Shown here: positions 21,721 through 61,247 of the stretch, piece after piece
Position numbering within the stretch: position 1 is the stretch's first letter
How the letters are laid out: the number at the start of each line of letters is the position of its first letter
Assembly (NCBI RefSeq): GCF_029266855.1
Contig: NZ_JAQSWB010000008.1
Coordinates: 186,001 to 250,000, forward strand
Source of the DNA: Fluviicola sp.
Lineage (GTDB): Bacteria; Bacteroidota; Bacteroidia; Flavobacteriales_D; Crocinitomicaceae
Length of the DNA: 64,000 nucleotides
Direction of reading: 5' to 3'
Program-made: the position numbers and the translations under genes
The notes under the pieces: generated by a model
Seen by the model: only the letters and a program-made list of their open reading frames with translations
Told to the model about the DNA's origin: nothing
Database searches by the model: none

Positions 21721-21815
21721 TATTAAAGTATAAATAAAGCATAGTTAAAGCATAGATGAAGCATAGATATAGCGACGTTTGTATAGTTATTTAACATAGT
21801 GAATGTGTATTTAAC
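21721..21815 (+). repeat. Dispersed element, copy 1: degenerate 11-bp repeats plus 51-bp core
   Basis: Three degenerate 11-bp units stand at 21732-21742 (AAATAAAGCAT), 21743-21753 (AGTTAAAGCAT) and 21754-21764 (AGATGAAGCAT), with a possible fourth at 21721-21731. They lead into a 51-bp core at 21765-21815. By direct comparison the core matches the reverse complement of 60797-60847 at 48 of 51 positions. The core holds two TATTTAAC motifs exactly 20 bp apart (21788-21795 and 21808-21815), the spacing expected of a protein bound on one face of the helix. It ends 150 bp before the downstream ATG. Confidence 0.85.
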
Positions 21816-21932
21816 CACTAATAACCAATCAAGAATCACTAATCTGATTGAATTAAACAAAATCAATTTAGTACACACTCAAACTTATCCGAACCATAAT
21901 TTACTCGTAAACAAATAGATAGAATTGAAAAG

Positions 21933-21940
21933 TAGCTTTG
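21933..21940 (+). promoter_or_regulatory. Candidate -7 box for the secreted protein at 21966
   Basis: TAGCTTTG fits TAnnTTTG and lies 25 bp before the ATG. No TTG is present at the -33 distance, so a weak or activator-dependent promoter is possible, consistent with the conserved element further upstream. Confidence 0.45.
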
Positions 21941-21965
21941 TTTCACTATAACGGAATCATAAACT

Positions 21966-23021
21966 ATGCTTACTATAATGAGACGGATTACTTTCATTCT
22001 TCAACAATTCAGCGTGATCACACTTCTATGTGTCGCCTTCACTCAAACATCATCTGCCCAGTGTCCTTCCGGAACCCTTGGGGTTACGGGAGCCGGATGT
22101 GGCTGTTTATCAGGTTGTAATTTAACGAGCCTGGGCGGACCGAACTGCTCCCCTTCAGTTGGTGGAGACTGTACCGGCGGACAGCGAAGCATGTCGGAAG
22201 ATATTGTGGTTCCTGCCGGCTGTACCTATACTGTCACGGCAACCATGAGACCAAGAGCCGGCGGGTGCACCTCTTCAGGAGGAGATGCCGGAGACCAGGT
22301 AAAAGTGGATATTTCCGGAGGTGGTAAAGGATTTCAAACCGGAAGCTCCAATGCAATCTTGAATGATAGTTATACTTTGGCCGGACCGGGTACCATCCGT
22401 GTTTCGGGAACAGCAAATCGCGCAGATGAGATCATTACTTATACCACTACATTCAGTGGAGCTGCCTGTGTAAACTGCATGAGTGTTCTTCCCGTGGAAT
22501 TAACTTCCTTCCAGGTTTCATTGGAAAACAAAGCCGTTGCATGTGACTGGTGGACAGAAACCGAATTGAATAACGATTTTTTCACCGTAGAACGAAGCCT
22601 CGACGGAATTCATTTCGAAGCCATTGCTTATTTAAAAGGAGCCGGAACAAGCCTGGATCCTTTGCATTACAAGATCTATGATTACGATCCTTACCTGGAT
22701 GTAATAAGTTATTACCGTTTGTCTCAAACCGATTTAAACGGGATTACGCGGCTACATGATACCCGTTCGATCAAACCTGAAAGAACGAATGAATTGACTA
22801 TCTCCCCGAATCCGTCAAACGGAACCATTAAAATCACGGGGGATTACACTACCCTACTTGGCTCGAAACTGTTTGATACATCCGGAAGAGAAATTGCGCT
22901 GAATCATTCTTCCACCGAAATCAACGAGATTACCGTTTCTTCATTACCAATCGGAGTTTACACACTCGTATATTTTGATAATGAAGAAACGATCTCTGAA
23001 CGTATTATCGTAATTCCTTAA
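21966..23021 (+). CDS. Cysteine-rich secreted protein with T9SS sorting domain
   Basis: The 351-residue product has a signal peptide ending at TSSAQ (residue 31). The mature N-terminal part up to about residue 170 has ten cysteines, mostly in CGC and GC pairs, and glycine-rich loops (AGCGCLSGCN, GGPNCSPSVGGDC), ending in a small beta domain (TYTVTATMRPRAGG, GGGKGFQTGSS). I do not recognise this part. The middle (LPVELTSFQVSLENKAVACDW, then SYYRLSQTDLNG) is the linker found before many T9SS tails, and residues 275-351 (LTISPNPSNG to IVIP) are the type A sorting domain. An ATG four codons in (21978) is an alternative start. The gene ends tail to tail with the next one, sharing TTAA at 23018-23021. 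Confidence 0.88.
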   Translation: MLTIMRRITFILQQFSVITLLCVAFTQTSSAQCPSGTLGVTGAGCGCLSGCNLTSLGGPNCSPSVGGDCTGGQRSMSEDIVVPAGCTYTVTATMRPRAGGCTSSGGDAGDQVKVDISGGGKGFQTGSSNAILNDSYTLAGPGTIRVSGTANRADEIITYTTTFSGAACVNCMSVLPVELTSFQVSLENKAVACDWWTETELNNDFFTVERSLDGIHFEAIAYLKGAGTSLDPLHYKIYDYDPYLDVISYYRLSQTDLNGITRLHDTRSIKPERTNELTISPNPSNGTIKITGDYTTLLGSKLFDTSGREIALNHSSTEINEITVSSLPIGVYTLVYFDNEETISERIIVIP

Positions 23022-33207: not shown

Positions 33208-33917
33208 TGAGTGCCGGTAATTTATACCTTATTCCCAATACGCTTGGAGGCGAATCCACTGAGGATATTATTCCTCAAAAAGTAGCTGAAATTGCCAGTG
33301 AACTTCGTGTTTTTGCAGTGGAAGACATTAAATCCGCACGCAGGTTGCTTCGTAAAATAGACCGGACTTTTCCAATCGACGAATCAGAGTTTTTTGTACT
33401 TAACAAAGCTACAGCAGCAAGCGAAGTCTATCACCTGATCAAGGCCATGAAAGCGGGAAAAAGTGTTGGAATCATCAGTGAAGCAGGTTGTGCCGGAATT
33501 GCAGATCCGGGGGCTATTTTGGTTTCCCTTGCTCATGAAAATGAGATCCGCGTTTGCCCGACCGTAGGACCAAGTTCTATCCTGCTGACTTTAATCGGAA
33601 GCGGTTTTAACGGACAGCAATTTTCATTTCACGGATATTTACCCAAAGAACAAAAGGAACGGATCAGAAAATTGAAGGACCTGGAACAACGGGTAAAAAG
33701 AAACGGCGAAACTCAGTTGTTTATGGATACTCCTTTCAGATCCATGCACGTTTTTGAAGATCTACTCAATGTACTGGCAGATGACACCCTGCTTTGCGTA
33801 GCTTCCAACCTGACATTGTTCACCGAACGTATTCAAACGAAAACGATCAAAGACTGGAGAGAAAATGCTTACGACGTGAGCAAGCAGCCAACGATGTTCG
33901 CATTGGGGAAATTATGA
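33207..33917 (+). CDS. Tetrapyrrole-methylase family SAM methyltransferase (RsmI-like)
   Basis: The 236-residue protein carries the tetrapyrrole methylase fold: NLYLIPNTLGGE at the N-terminus, KSVGIISEAGCAGIADPGAI near 88-107 (the SAM-binding glycine-rich turn) and VCPTVGPSSILLTLIGSGF near 115-133. RsmI methylates C1402 of 16S rRNA; this short form belongs to a related Bacteroidota group annotated as SAM-dependent methyltransferase. I do not claim the exact substrate. Coupled to the phosphatase gene by a one-base overlap. A tandem repeat begins directly at its stop codon. Confidence 0.92.
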   Translation: MSAGNLYLIPNTLGGESTEDIIPQKVAEIASELRVFAVEDIKSARRLLRKIDRTFPIDESEFFVLNKATAASEVYHLIKAMKAGKSVGIISEAGCAGIADPGAILVSLAHENEIRVCPTVGPSSILLTLIGSGFNGQQFSFHGYLPKEQKERIRKLKDLEQRVKRNGETQLFMDTPFRSMHVFEDLLNVLADDTLLCVASNLTLFTERIQTKTIKDWRENAYDVSKQPTMFALGKL

Positions 33918-33993
33918 GGATGTTAGGACTTTAGGACATTAGGATATTAGGACGTTAGGATATTAGGATGTTAGGATTTTAGGACTTTAGGAC
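33918..33993 (+). repeat. 8-bp tandem repeat GGAYNTTA, nine units
   Basis: Nine variable units of the form GGAYNTTA (GGATGTTA, GGACTTTA, GGACATTA and so on) run without a break from the first base after the stop codon of the methylase gene to 33989, plus GGAC. Confidence 0.92.
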
Positions 33994-34479: not shown

Positions 34480-36606
34480 TCATCTCACCATGGTCACATG
34501 TCCGTTAACGGTATACTTTTTATCCGTATTGGGATCTTTAAAAGTGATTGTCCAGGTATAAATTCCTTCCTGTACCAAAGCTCCGTTAAAGGATCCGTCC
34601 CAGCCAACTTTTGCATCTCTTGATTCGAATAACGTTTCACCCCATCTGTTAAAGATTAATAATCTGAAACTATAGGGATCAAATCCGGAAGTAAATACCG
34701 GCTGGAATGTGTTATTCAATTCATCCCCATCCGGAGTGAAGGAGTTCGGAACATAATAAATCAACTCATCGAGAACCCGTACAACAAGCCTGCTTGTATC
34801 CGAACATCCAAAGGTATTTGTAGCTACCAATTGAACGGTATAATTACTCGCAACCTCATCGTAGGTATGAGTCGGTGAAAAAACAGTTGAATTTCCGCCA
34901 TCTCCGAAGCTCCAGCTATAGCTTGTAGCATTTGACGAAGTATTGATAAAATGAATTTCAGGATGTGTAATTGTTGCGTCATATGGAGATGGTGTAAACG
35001 AAGCATCCGCCTCCGGATTCACGCAGATAAAATTAACTTTTGTAGAAGTCGCCGAACATCCGTTGAGATCTGTTACCGTTAAGGACACTGTGAAGCAGCC
35101 TGCAGAGGTATAGTTTGCCGAACCGCTTGCCAGAGAAACGGCTGTTTGCCCGTTGCCGAAATTCCACTGTGAGCTTACAGCCGAAGGGGTTTGATTCGTA
35201 AAATTGACCAGTAGAGGTACACAGCCTGATAAAGTATCCGCAATGAAATTGGTGGAAGGTACCGGATTCACCACAATCGTTGTTGTAGAAGCTCCCGAAC
35301 AAGAACCCGGAATATCATAGGTAATAACGAATGAACCAGCCCCTGAAACACTTGGATCGAACAATCCGGTTGCAGCATTTACAATTCCTGTTCCCGACCA
35401 GGTTCCGCCGGGACTTGCGGCAGTAAGTGAAACAGCAGTACCATTCGCACAAAAAGGTCCGGTGGGAGTAATTGCCGTGGATGTACCAGAATTCAAGGCT
35501 ACAGTAGTAGACGTAGTTGCCGTACATGCATTCAAGGTTATGGTTACCGTATAAACGCCAAATTCATTCCCCGAAATAGAAGCAATACCCGGATTCTGAG
35601 AAGTTGAACTAAATGCATTAGGACCAGTCCATGAATAAGTTCCGCCCGGAGTTCCGACTGCAGTCAGGCTTAATGACTGATTTACACAAAGCGGTCCGTT
35701 ATTCGAAGCTGAAACAGTTGGTAGCGGATTTACGGTAACTGTTACGGGAGCCGATACAGAAGAGCAGCCCAAATTTGAAACCGTAACAGTATATGTACCG
35801 GATGTTGACACGGTAAGTGACTGCGTATTTACTCCCGCGTACCAAGTATTTCCAGTTGCAGAGGAAGAAGTTAAAGTCACAGAACCACCCGCACAAAAGG
35901 TTGTTGGTCCACTGGCAGTAATGGTCGGAACCGGTGGAAGCGGATTCATCGTAACAGTTGTTGCAAGAGATGTCGATGAACACGGTCCATTCGAAACGGT
36001 AACCGTATAGGAACCACTTGCAGAAACAGTGATCGATTGAGTTGTTGCACCATTCGACCAGGTATTCCCAGATGCTGATGAAGAAGTTAAGGTCACCGAT
36101 CCACCCGAACAGAAAGTTACCGGTCCATTTGCTGTAATTGTTGGCACTGCAGGGAGCGGATTTACCGTAACGCTTGTTGCGGCAGATGCCGAATTACAAG
36201 CATTCGCTGAAACTACCAATGAATAAGTTCCACTAGTTGAAACTGTAATAGATTGAGTTGTGGCACCATTCGACCAGGTATTTCCCGTTGCAGATGAAGA
36301 AGTTAAGGTAACTGATCCACCTGTACAAAATGAAATTGGTCCGCTTGCCGTAATTGTTGGAGTTGCAGGAAGCGGATTTACTGTAATTGTTGTCGCGGCA
36401 GATGTGGATGAACACGAGCCGTTAGAAACCGTAACCGTATAAGAACCACTAGCAGTTACTGTAATGGATTGAGTTGTTGCACCATTCGACCAGGTATTTC
36501 CCGTTGCACACCCGCACAGAAAATTACCGGTCCATTTGCTGTAATTGTCGGTACTGCCGGAAGCGGATTCACTGTAACGCTTGTTGCGGCAGATATCGAA
36601 GAACAC
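34480..36606 (-). CDS. C-terminal part of a frameshifted T9SS type B repeat protein
   Basis: The ORF opens at an ATG at 36606, but its first 33 or so codons are an out-of-frame reading of a repeat; the true frame joins at about 36508. It then encodes the last part of repeat 7, repeats 8-10 of a 72-residue unit, a domain starting ASNNGPLCVNQSLSL, two PKD domains (CVPLLVNFTNQTPSAVSSQW and IHFINTSSNATSYSWSFGDG), and a terminal gliding-motility-associated domain: YVPNSFTPDGDELNN, LLIFNRWGETLFES, VQEGIYTWTITF, ending VTMVR. That last domain is the T9SS type B sorting signal. The upstream part lies at 36456-39578, and the two were one gene before a 25-nt deletion. Confidence 0.88.
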   Translation of the reverse strand: MFFDICRNKRYSESASGSTDNYSKWTGNFLCGCATGNTWSNGATTQSITVTASGSYTVTVSNGSCSSTSAATTITVNPLPATPTITASGPISFCTGGSVTLTSSSATGNTWSNGATTQSITVSTSGTYSLVVSANACNSASAATSVTVNPLPAVPTITANGPVTFCSGGSVTLTSSSASGNTWSNGATTQSITVSASGSYTVTVSNGPCSSTSLATTVTMNPLPPVPTITASGPTTFCAGGSVTLTSSSATGNTWYAGVNTQSLTVSTSGTYTVTVSNLGCSSVSAPVTVTVNPLPTVSASNNGPLCVNQSLSLTAVGTPGGTYSWTGPNAFSSTSQNPGIASISGNEFGVYTVTITLNACTATTSTTVALNSGTSTAITPTGPFCANGTAVSLTAASPGGTWSGTGIVNAATGLFDPSVSGAGSFVITYDIPGSCSGASTTTIVVNPVPSTNFIADTLSGCVPLLVNFTNQTPSAVSSQWNFGNGQTAVSLASGSANYTSAGCFTVSLTVTDLNGCSATSTKVNFICVNPEADASFTPSPYDATITHPEIHFINTSSNATSYSWSFGDGGNSTVFSPTHTYDEVASNYTVQLVATNTFGCSDTSRLVVRVLDELIYYVPNSFTPDGDELNNTFQPVFTSGFDPYSFRLLIFNRWGETLFESRDAKVGWDGSFNGALVQEGIYTWTITFKDPNTDKKYTVNGHVTMVR

Positions 36607-37868
36607 GGTCCGTTTGATACAGTTACCGTATAAGAACCACTAGCTGTAACCGTAATTGTTTGCGTTGTTGCTCCATTCGACCAGGTATTTCCAGTTGCCG
36701 AAGATGAAGTCAGTGTTACCGAACCGCCTGTACAAAAGCTTGTTGGTCCGCCAGCTGTAATGGTTGGTACTGCCGGGAGCGGATTTACTGTAACACTTGT
36801 CGCTGTGGAGGTCGAAGAACACGAGCCGTTAGAAACCGTAACCGTATAAGAACCACTAGCAGTTACTGTAATGGATTGAGTTGTTGCACCATTCGACCAG
36901 GTATTTCCCGTTGCACAGGTATTTCCCGTTGCAGATGAAGAAGTTAAAGTTACCGAACCACCCGCACAAAAGGTCGTTGGCCCACCGGCTGTAATTGTAG
37001 GTACTGCCGGAAGCGGATTCACTGTAACGCTTGTTGCGGCAGATGAAGAAGAACATGATCCGTTTGATACAGTTACCGTATAAGAACCACTAGCTGTAAC
37101 CGTAATTGTTTGCGTTGTTGCTCCATTCGACCAGGTATTTCCCGTTGCCGAAGATGAAGTCAGAGTTACCGAACCGCCTGTACAAAAGCTTGTCGGTCCG
37201 CCAGCTGTAATGGTTGGTACTGCCGGGAGCGGATTCACCGTAACACTTGTCGCTGTGGAGGTCGAAGAACACGAGCCGTTGGAAACCGTAACCGTATAAG
37301 AACCGCTTGTTGTGACTGTAATGGATTGAGTTGTTGCTCCATTCGACCAGGTATTTCCCGTTGCAGATGAAGAAGTTAAAGTTACCGAACCACCCGCACA
37401 AAAGGTCGTTGGTCCGCCGGCTGTAATTGTCGGTACTGCCGGAAGTGGATTCACCGTAACAGTTGTTGCTGCAGATGCAGAAGTACAGCCACTCGCTGAA
37501 ACTGTCAATGAATAAGTCCCGCTAGTTGAAACTGTAATTGATTGAGTTGTGGCACCTGTAGACCAGGTGTTTCCAGTTACAGATGAAGAAGTTAAGATAA
37601 CTGATCCACCTGTACAAAATGAAATTGGCCCGCTTGCTGTAATTGTCGGAGTAGCCGGGAGCGGATTTACTGTGACAGTTGTTGCAGCTGATGTCGCTGA
37701 GCAAGATCCGCTTAAAACCGTAACCGTATAGGATCCGCTTGTTGTGACTGTAATGGATTGAGTTGTTGCACCATTTGACCAGGTGTTCCCCGTTGCAGAA
37801 GATGAAGTCAGGGTTACCGAACCACCCGCACAAAAGGTAGTCGGGCCGCCAGCGGTAAGCGTAGGCGG
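35716..37868 (-). repeat. Ten tandem 216-bp (72-residue) protein repeats
   Basis: Ten units start PTITAGGPTTFCAGGS and end VTVNPLPA, each with two cysteines spaced about 43 residues apart. Units 3-4 and 5-6 are nearly identical as a pair, which suggests a recent 432-bp duplication. Unit 5 has an 18-bp tandem duplication (36898-36915 and 36916-36933). Unit 7 lacks 25 nt at the junction 36508/36509. Confidence 0.92.
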
Positions 37869-60020: not shown

Positions 60021-60644
60021 CTATTTCTTGAATACTTGATTTTCCATTTCGAACAGCAGCAATTCAGACAAGGACTTCACTTTTAATTTCCTGAAACAGT
60101 TTTTCCGATGAGTTTGGACTGTATGCGGACTTAAGCCCAATTCACGGCTTATTTCCGCAGTCGATTTCCCATTTAATAAGGACTCGACGATCTCTGTTTC
60201 GCGTTTGGTGAGGCTGAATTGAGTAGGTGAAGTAATTTCGTCGTCCTGATTGAGAATTCTATTCCAAACCACTTCACAGTAATAATTCTGGTTATGGAGC
60301 ATCTTTTGGAATGCTTCTTTTAATTCATCCAGGGTACAGTTTATATCAATGAATCCGGAAACTCCATAAGATACCAGTTTAGGAAGGCCAGAAACATCTC
60401 CACTGATGATTAAAACAACTTTAATGCAATTGGTGTCTTCAGGAGTTATTTTCAGATTATTCTCAATTTCCTGGTAATTATCAGAAAAATTGTAGACTAA
60501 AACTTGCTTTTTTTCAGGATTTACCTGTTCTTTTCCAGGGTTTCCGGAGTGCCATTTAACAGAAACCTCCCCAAAAATTGACCGGACCAATTCCTTGAAT
60601 CCGAGACTAATCAATTGGGTCCTACTGTCGAGATACAGGTTCAT
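60021..60644 (-). CDS. LuxR-type regulator with degenerate receiver domain
   Basis: I take the start at ATG 60644 (MNLYLDSRTQLISLG), because this aligns with strand 1 of a receiver domain; the frame stays open to an ATG at 60722 that would add 26 unlikely residues. Residues 1-125 look like a CheY fold, but the phosphorylation site reads VYNFSDN where DLxMP is expected, and the conserved lysine is missing in GFIDINC. The C-terminus (about 142-200) is a LuxR-type helix-turn-helix: LTKRETEIVESLLNGKSTAE, then LGLSPHTVQTHRKN. So it likely acts without phosphorylation. It lies 43 bp upstream of the heme promoter, pointing towards it, and may control that operon. A 13-bp inverted repeat (TAGAAT-A-ATTCTA) is at 60651-60663. 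Confidence 0.87.
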   Translation of the reverse strand: MNLYLDSRTQLISLGFKELVRSIFGEVSVKWHSGNPGKEQVNPEKKQVLVYNFSDNYQEIENNLKITPEDTNCIKVVLIISGDVSGLPKLVSYGVSGFIDINCTLDELKEAFQKMLHNQNYYCEVVWNRILNQDDEITSPTQFSLTKRETEIVESLLNGKSTAEISRELGLSPHTVQTHRKNCFRKLKVKSLSELLLFEMENQVFKK

Positions 60645-60650
60645 GCTATA

Positions 60651-60663
60651 TAGAATAATTCTA
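60651..60663. promoter_or_regulatory. Inverted repeat upstream of the LuxR-type gene
   Basis: TAGAAT-A-ATTCTA ends 6 bp upstream of the chosen ATG, a typical place for an autoregulatory operator or a translation-blocking stem. Function is inferred only. Confidence 0.4.
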
Positions 60664-60796
60664 AATAGCAAAATTGATCTCTTATGAAGGATTCTACAAT
60701 ACCATAAATAGGGTATATCCAACTACCCGATTACTGTTATTTATAAGAGGCAATAGATGAATAGGCATTCGTTTTTTTAGTCCTAGTTTAGCAGCA

Positions 60797-60952
60797 GTTA
60801 AATACACGTTTACTATGTTAAATAAATATACAAACGTCGCTATATCTATGCTTCATTTATGCTTCATTTATGCTTCATTTATGCTTCATTTATGCTTCAT
60901 TTATGCTTCATTTATGCTTCATTTATGCTTCATTTATGCTTCATTTATGCTT
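60797..60952 (-). repeat. Dispersed element, copy 2: 51-bp core plus nine 11-bp repeats
   Basis: Nine perfect copies of ATGCTTCATTT occupy 60848-60946, followed by ATGCTT. The adjoining 51 bp (60797-60847) match the reverse complement of 21765-21815 at 48 of 51 positions, including two GTTAAATA motifs 20 bp apart (60797-60804 and 60817-60824). Read towards the regulator gene, order and orientation equal those of copy 1, and the core ends 152 bp before the ATG at 60644. Confidence 0.92.
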
Positions 60953-60989: not shown

Positions 60990-61247
60990 CCTTCGGCTTG
61001 CCCGTCTTTACCCAAAGCAGATCAACAAAATGATCGCTTCGGATCGAGTGAGACGGAGCCTTCCGCCTCGGCGGACTAACGCTTGTCCTTCGGCTTGCCC
61101 GTCTTGACCCATAGCAGATCAAACAAATGATCGCTTCGGATTGAGTGAGACGGAGCCTTCCGCCTCGGCGGACTAACGCTTTTCCTTCGGCTTGCCCGTC
61201 TTGTGAGACGGAGCCTCAGTCTTCGTCCGCCACGGCGGACTCTTATC
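60990..61247. repeat. 97-bp GC-rich tandem repeat, two full and one divergent partial copy
   Basis: Units start with CCTTCGGCTTGCCCGTCTT at 60990, 61087 and 61184, exactly 97 bp apart. The first two are nearly identical; the third lacks the middle part (GCAGATCAA...GATCGCTTCGGAT) and has the ending GTCCGCC / GGCGGAC seen at 34443. The last bases include the stop codon of the reverse gene (TTA at 61243-61245). Confidence 0.92.

Follow-up and report, generated by a model that had tools for sequence, protein, structure and literature searches.

We propose, with a rough probability of 0.55, that two similar sites in a 64,000-nucleotide stretch of Fluviicola DNA (the window) are copies of a distinct, gene-linked family of dispersed intergenic repeats, which would be spreading within Fluviicola genomes and would have a counterpart beside its own gene. 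The source organism is a freshwater bacterium, whose genome (G000; 4.30 Mb in 14 contigs) contains the window at C8:186001-250000. The original prediction had taken the two sites for an upstream activator site or a repeat-number switch of the genes that they precede, which encode a LuxR-type regulator and a protein with a T9SS sorting tail. For these genes, a gene-linked mobile repeat looks more like the truth than a switch, and the best explanation is that both genes are bystanders with upstream regions of their own.

Layout of the two window copies

The anatomy that had been described for the two sites was reproduced. Their 51-bp cores, at 21765-21815 on the forward strand and 60797-60847 on the reverse strand, are identical at 48 of 51 positions, and both carry TATTTAAC boxes at 20-bp spacing. 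An 11-bp array precedes each core (21724-21773 and 60847-60952); in the second array, GCATAAATGAA occurs as nine perfect units. The element reads towards both genes at core-to-ATG spacings of 150 and 152 bp. A 19-bp core occurs twice in the window, against 0.02 occurrences expected in shuffles.

Copy 1 begins with a degenerate array of GCATAGATGAA-like units (21724-21765, forward strand; TRF gives period 11 and 4.5 copies over 21724-21773). The conserved core, GCATAGATATAGCGACGTTTGTATA (21761-21785), is the same in all 22 genome copies except for a CG/TT dinucleotide, and is followed by two TTTAAC boxes, 20 bp apart with a variable spacer (21790-21815), and by a 3′ tail (21816-21845) that exactly matches the copy at C8:130071 (L007). 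The two sequences diverge from position 21846, which on this comparison we take as the end of the copied stretch. Next on the same strand are the region upstream of the neighbouring gene (21846-21965), the first ~70 bp of which are kept in the sister species G012, with no element found there by our models, and the gene itself (21966-23021; Pfam Por_Secre_tail, 7.9e-8). Copy 2 lies entirely on the reverse strand, with one degenerate unit beside the nine perfect ones in its array (60847-60952), a conserved core (60827-60851) and two TTTAAC boxes (60797-60822). The region upstream of its neighbour (60645-60722) is kept in G007, G012 and G006, again with no element found there by the models, and leads to the LuxR-type gene (60024-60644), whose product has a GerE domain (Pfam, 1e-18).

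The intervals between cores and ATGs had been described as 150 bp without similarity; part of this sequence proves to be kept in sister species where the element is missing. The gap at the LuxR locus measures 601 bp in the source genome versus 172, 146 and 114 bp in three sister species, and all four have in common roughly the final 75 bp ahead of the ATG. At the T9SS-tail locus, the G012 sequence matches the source genome from directly after the tail of the element, and a GTTATTCTGTAACA stretch farther upstream in G012 could be the remnant of a B-like element. Because part of the DNA between core and ATG is kept in species without the element, the equal distances of ~150 bp look like a coincidence.

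Other repeats also occur in the window. A 97-bp repeat in 2.2 tandem copies (60990-61203) lies upstream of the second array, and its relatives adjoin many arrays elsewhere in the source genome; a tandem array with an 8-bp unit (TTAGGACA) occupies 33913-33993, and long repeats with a 216-bp period (35841-37858) overlap large minus-strand ORFs.

Type A copies across the source genome

The window sites belong to a set of 22 copies in the source genome, which we call type A: 13 match the core exactly (CG) and nine have two mismatches (TT at one dinucleotide), while four three-mismatch matches (L023-L026) were left out and treated as other types. The reversed core, used as a control, had zero matches in the whole genome. 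The prediction of a shared element with a length-variable array is thus borne out, with 1-10 units per copy by a loose criterion. The sequences define type A as a directional module consisting of an 11-bp-phased array, a conserved core and two TTTAAC boxes 20 bp apart. Mean pairwise identity among the 22 copies is 1.0 in the core (without the CG/TT dinucleotide), 0.98 and 0.92 in the first and second TTTAAC boxes, 0.55 in the array, 0.36 in the spacer and 0.29 in the outer flank, with L014 omitted from columns beyond +24. In that copy (C1:116781), a run of ATTCATA heptamers stands in place of the 3′ half. L007 and L008 have 80 nt in common from the core start and then diverge abruptly, and L019 and L020 are 90% alike across 60 nt 3′ of the core. 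A REP-like hairpin, GGCGCGAG-N6-GCTCGTGCC, has 16 matches in the genome at up to two mismatches, five of them within ~100 bp 3′ of a type A core (L006, L010, L018, L019 and L020).

All 22 copies are short, non-coding and located in gaps between called genes, where context was taken from simple ORF calls and element-overlapping ORFs below 400 nt, present at several copies, were disregarded. Ten gaps are divergent, six are tandem with the element reading towards the start, three are tandem with it reading away, two are convergent, and one copy faces a start at a contig end. A check proposed with the original prediction was whether every copy lies 100-200 bp before a start in the same orientation, which does not hold: the 17 copies that face a start do so at 68-406 bp (measured from position +54), and the tandem-away and convergent copies face none. 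Neither the proportion facing a start (17 of 22 versus 0.598 expected; p=0.07) nor the distribution over gap classes relative to the intergenic bases of 400 kb (p=0.13) differs significantly from expectation. The pattern that had been named as pointing to a mobile repeat was seen in part, as mixed orientations and positions at gene ends; no copies occur inside genes.

The flanking proteins likewise fail to suggest a common target. The 30 that were scanned against Pfam have mixed functions, including diphthamide synthase, a tRNA methyl/thiouridylase-type enzyme, pantoate ligase, UvrD, GrpE, a tRNA synthetase and citrate synthase, with no functional theme besides T9SS domains. Those recur at three type A copies (Por_Secre_tail at L008, CHU_C at L022, and L001 just under the cut-off), and Por_Secre_tail is also found at a type B locus (L127).

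A control element specific to the LuxR-type and T9SS genes therefore appears very improbable. It would account for the element reading towards both genes at 150-152 bp, for the recent slippage suggested by the nine perfect units of copy 2 and for the recurrence of T9SS sorting domains near copies; against it stand the conserved upstream sequence that lacks the element in sister species and the 20 further type A copies, most of which have genes of different kinds as neighbours. The fixed position and orientation, co-regulated genes and conservation with them that characterize a gene-specific upstream activator were not seen for type A, in which copies sit beside mixed genes at varied distances and are mostly absent from orthologous places. 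What survives of the regulatory suggestion is that the motif shows the conservation expected of a site to which a protein binds, and a bound protein may regulate at some copies.

A wider repeat family

Type A is one member of a wider repeat family that includes types A, B/C, D and E. A sequence-only model of type A (R1; 29 sites, seven of them from G007) gave 73 matches in the source genome, 42 in G007 and, per genome, 0-5 in 12 further members of the genus, counts that include partial array matches, with 150 candidates scored per genome. In type B, the array is followed by GTATGAAAAKGTTAWNNATTTAACA with an inverted GTTAA..TTAAC and, in many cases, by TTTTACTG after that. Direct repeats of TTCTCACAAATGTAAA-like motifs tend to flank it, on both sides at 4 of 26 B loci (up to four mismatches); a same-strand motif of this kind lies within 200 bp at 19 of 26 B loci versus 1 of 33 loci on the type A list (L023, itself not type A). 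A second model, R2, matched in 9 of 14 genus genomes and, under stricter filters, in 23 of 120 family genomes, seven of them in the genus. The D copy beside a DUF250 gene (see below) in the source genome has a tail in common with the dispersed copy L101 and nearly so with L026. A D-type pattern occurred once in 400 kb, no more than in shuffled sequence (0-1).

A B copy precedes an M1-peptidase gene (Pfam) in each of four species, in the same orientation and with its own variant in each, where orientation was judged from the downstream gene, the only neighbour matched in three of the species. Across 72 classed elements of all types, in which L039 and L107 are one locus counted twice, there is a mild excess of divergent gaps (p=0.026); elements in tandem gaps follow no orientation rule (19 versus 15; p=0.61).

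Presence and absence in sister species

Orthologous regions were fetched in G007 for 21 type A loci, both neighbours being found in 17, and presence was called with nhmmer and both models at E < 0.1 for the fetched stretch. An A-family element was found at five of the 17 (L003, L004, L011, L014 and L019) and not at the other 12. Among loci with both neighbours, G012 had type A at 0 of 14, with one B element (at L020), and G006 had an element at 0 of 12. Element-free places were thus seen in sister species, with the element ends there blurred by divergence, and places corresponding to type B copies are likewise without an element in relatives (L135, L139 and L142). The element near a gene common to L026 and L112 is in opposite orientation, as read from alignment positions only. 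L018 and L035 were paired through the DUF250 gene that they have in common, and this pairing is no two-sided proof of an orthologous insertion.

The core pattern, at up to two mismatches, matched in 6 of 59 genomes (the source genome and 58 relatives). Single matches in G011, G013, G016 and G022 have no array, the G013 match (L031) being core-like with 3e-5 to R1; G007 has eight matches, one of which (L043) is not an element by eye. Copies with an array were seen only in the source genome and G007, which are also the sole genus members with the A-bearing DUF250 clade. The two species differ in the wording of the core. At the five common loci, ACGTTTG in the source genome corresponds to ATGATTG, ATGAATG or ATGGTTG in G007, and the 24-nt cores differ at 2-10 positions. 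Mean core differences of 1.2 within the source genome, 5.3 within G007 and 6.35 between non-orthologous copies indicate that the first set is homogeneous and the second only partly so. These comparisons suggest co-evolution. Because the core and TTTAAC boxes are conserved and the spacers are not, and because the two species differ in core wording, some protein probably reads the motif.

This pattern could also arise if a protein bound the arrays in a scattered network for nucleoid organization or for regulation of many genes, with the copies kept by selection, new copies produced by chance duplication, and species differences reflecting changed protein specificity. The conserved core among variable spacers, the species-specific wording at the five common loci, the same-orientation B copy before the M1-peptidase gene and the mild excess of divergent gaps over all types would all fit. 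We nonetheless regard such a network as unlikely, given the mixed target genes and varied distances, the lack of an orientation rule in tandem gaps, the absence of most type A copies from orthologous places and a gap-class excess that is not significant for type A alone.

A linked gene family

The proposed repeat family is gene-linked in that two kinds of gene recur beside its arrays, encoding an uncharacterized protein of ~250 residues, which we label DUF250, and a helix-turn-helix-like protein of 65 residues, labelled HTH65. In a sample of 20 array loci (18 of 26 non-Fluviicola array matches and two in G013), an HTH65 gene begins at the array in 13, a DUF250 gene lies on the other side and reads away from the array in 12, and neither is present in seven. 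Neither protein reached the cut-off for any Pfam or NCBIfam family, and PHROG and PADLOC gave only weak matches, none of the PHROG matches to DUF250 being significant.

DUF250 is found in 47 of 120 family genomes searched, with 18 matches in 6 of 14 genus genomes. HTH65 has strong matches in the genus only in G013, with weak ones in G006, G007 and G011, and was not found in that search in G000, G002 or G012. An R1 or R2 match lies within 500 bp upstream of 7 of the 18 DUF250 genes and reads away (three in G013 and one each in G006, G010, G007 and G000). A rough Poisson estimate, for which matches were summed with some overlap among them, gives a chance expectation of 0.04 such neighbours, or of 0.34 when intergenic DNA is allowed for ninefold; two of the seven (L018 and L035) belonged to the R1 training alignment. 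A generic three-unit array score reached at least 21 in 10 of 18 DUF250 upstream regions versus 11 of 1500 random windows. For the other eight the score gave no clear separation, at 20 for L296, L305, L309 and L310 (reached by 30 of 1500 windows) and 18-19 for L294, L295, L300 and L307 (reached by 117-542); among 257 AT-rich windows, unscreened for real elements, the 99th percentile equalled the maximum of 24. To the eye, the regions at L310 and L300 have little or no array, and the array at L309 is inverted.

Array types upstream of DUF250 genes were read by eye as C at G000 C11, A2 at G007 C5, E at G003, and D at G000 C3 and at G007 C25, C24 and C12 (inverted). When these assignments are placed on a FastTree phylogeny of the 18 genes (first 200 residues), a clade with support 0.98 unites the three genes that bear A or A2 arrays, at 61-73% identity, and a second clade with support 1.0 unites the four with D arrays, at 57-88%. 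Identity across these two clades is 22-28%, and the E-bearing gene stands alone. Within the genus, array type thus appears to follow DUF250 clade for A and D. The B-type copies of F. chungangensis (G012) and G002 do not share this pairing, as the two genomes have 10 and 11 R2 matches, respectively, well kept to the eye in the former and decayed in the latter, yet no DUF250 match.

A search with the DUF250 protein alone led to a further copy on a Marivirga plasmid, where the order is again HTH65 (2.6e-33 to model A3), array and DUF250, the array being short. The DUF250 frame on this plasmid (p1, L311 4001-4534) is interrupted and has no gene entry in the PLSDB table, which omits pseudogenes. 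First-clade DUF250 genes are often the first in a series of small genes, some of whose products contain hydrophobic segments (L293, L294, L295, L299, L300, L303, L306 and L308). The series comprises a 70-90-residue hydrophobic protein and, usually, a ~70-residue RFKAGAEL protein and a ~60-residue hydrophobic protein, a relative of which from L296 has a weak PADLOC 2TM-effector match (E 0.0015).

Proposed mechanism

In the mechanism that we envisage, DUF250, HTH65 or another partner would bind the array cooperatively, one unit per helical turn, and the bound protein would help the repeat to be copied into further gaps between genes, by analogy with RAYT; alternatively, the dispersed copies could serve it for anchoring or regulation. 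More specifically, and tentatively, DUF250 (with or without HTH65) would be the cognate protein that spreads or maintains the 11-bp-phased array across the genome, each clade owning an array type. Such a gene-repeat system of Bacteroidota, for which the papers searched gave no precedent, would parallel REP/RAYT while needing neither hairpin nor transposase, and the specificities of array and protein would evolve together.

A conventional source of mobility seems rather doubtful. An ordinary MITE moved in trans by an unrelated IS, with the array as a passenger minisatellite and DUF250 proximity marking only its birthplace, would match BrickBuilt, which likewise lies between genes, has 19 copies and varies in its tandem array (PMC4596501). 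Six element regions, however, have no common terminal inverted pair of at least 10 nt, array type follows DUF250 clade, and the same gene-array layout recurs in Marivirga.

Several other candidates were considered and rejected. A structured RNA was set aside because none of six predicted pairs shows a double change, and a single-stranded DNA hairpin because three modules have no unusual fold. Integron attC/attI sites were considered because TTTAAC resembles RYYYAAC, and were dismissed on boxes that are direct rather than inverted and on mixed orientations; the box spacing may suggest LytTR or PhoB boxes, and the Bacteroidota promoter motif TAnnTTTG was a further candidate that was set aside. 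Phage origin was rejected with no DUF250 relative in IMG/VR or phage records and with only two IMG/VR matches to the A-core pattern, both without an array and inside listed ORFs; the B pattern had no match in IMG/VR. A PDB search gave no credible match, the best row for A3 being CAP REPEAT (2.7e-7 over 20 residues, no passing stretch).

If the pairing is real, the uncharacterized DUF250 family gains a first testable role, and the system offers a natural test case of how dozens of scattered sites change along with the specificity with which DNA is bound. Such arrays also counsel caution against reading them as promoters of the neighbouring gene.

Comparison with known systems

A search of the open-licence literature found no paper on Fluviicola or Crocinitomicaceae intergenic repeats or on an 11-bp repeat in Flavobacteria. 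REP/REPIN elements resemble the present repeats in being scattered between genes and in having a chromosomal partner gene, RAYT, that lies next to a repeat of the same type. A REP is a short hairpin, and RAYT, a Y1/HUH transposase, would promote the copying of REP elements. The correspondence of repeat type with gene clade, itself a REP/RAYT feature, appears here for the by-eye types A and D, with the B copies of G012 and G002 lacking a DUF250 match. Unlike REPs, three modules fold no better than shuffles (DNA fold z of -0.18, 1.54 and -0.34), and unlike RAYT, DUF250 matches no transposase family in Pfam, NCBIfam or PHROG. Cox/Xis-type excisionases, which are small proteins with a winged helix, bind sites arranged in tandem and in phase; of four HTH65 proteins tested, two have weak Cox-like matches of ~23 residues (phrog_575 at E 6.6e-4 for one, 0.031 for the other).

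The closest described kind is the BrickBuilt MITE of Porphyromonas gingivalis, with 19 copies, 23-nt units and IS5-like terminal inverted repeats (PMC4596501). Common to both are a Bacteroidota host, ~20 copies that are always intergenic, a variable tandem array with non-repeated flanks, a limited host range and neighbouring genes of varied kinds, several of which encode T9SS (PorSS) domains. The Fluviicola arrays differ in their 11-bp helical phasing, in the lack of any common terminal inverted repeats found here and in the linked gene family beside them, none being described for BrickBuilt in the parts of PMC4596501 covered. Since the repeats combine a REP/RAYT-like logic with a BrickBuilt-like anatomy and fail defining features of both, we propose that they constitute a distinct gene-linked repeat family.
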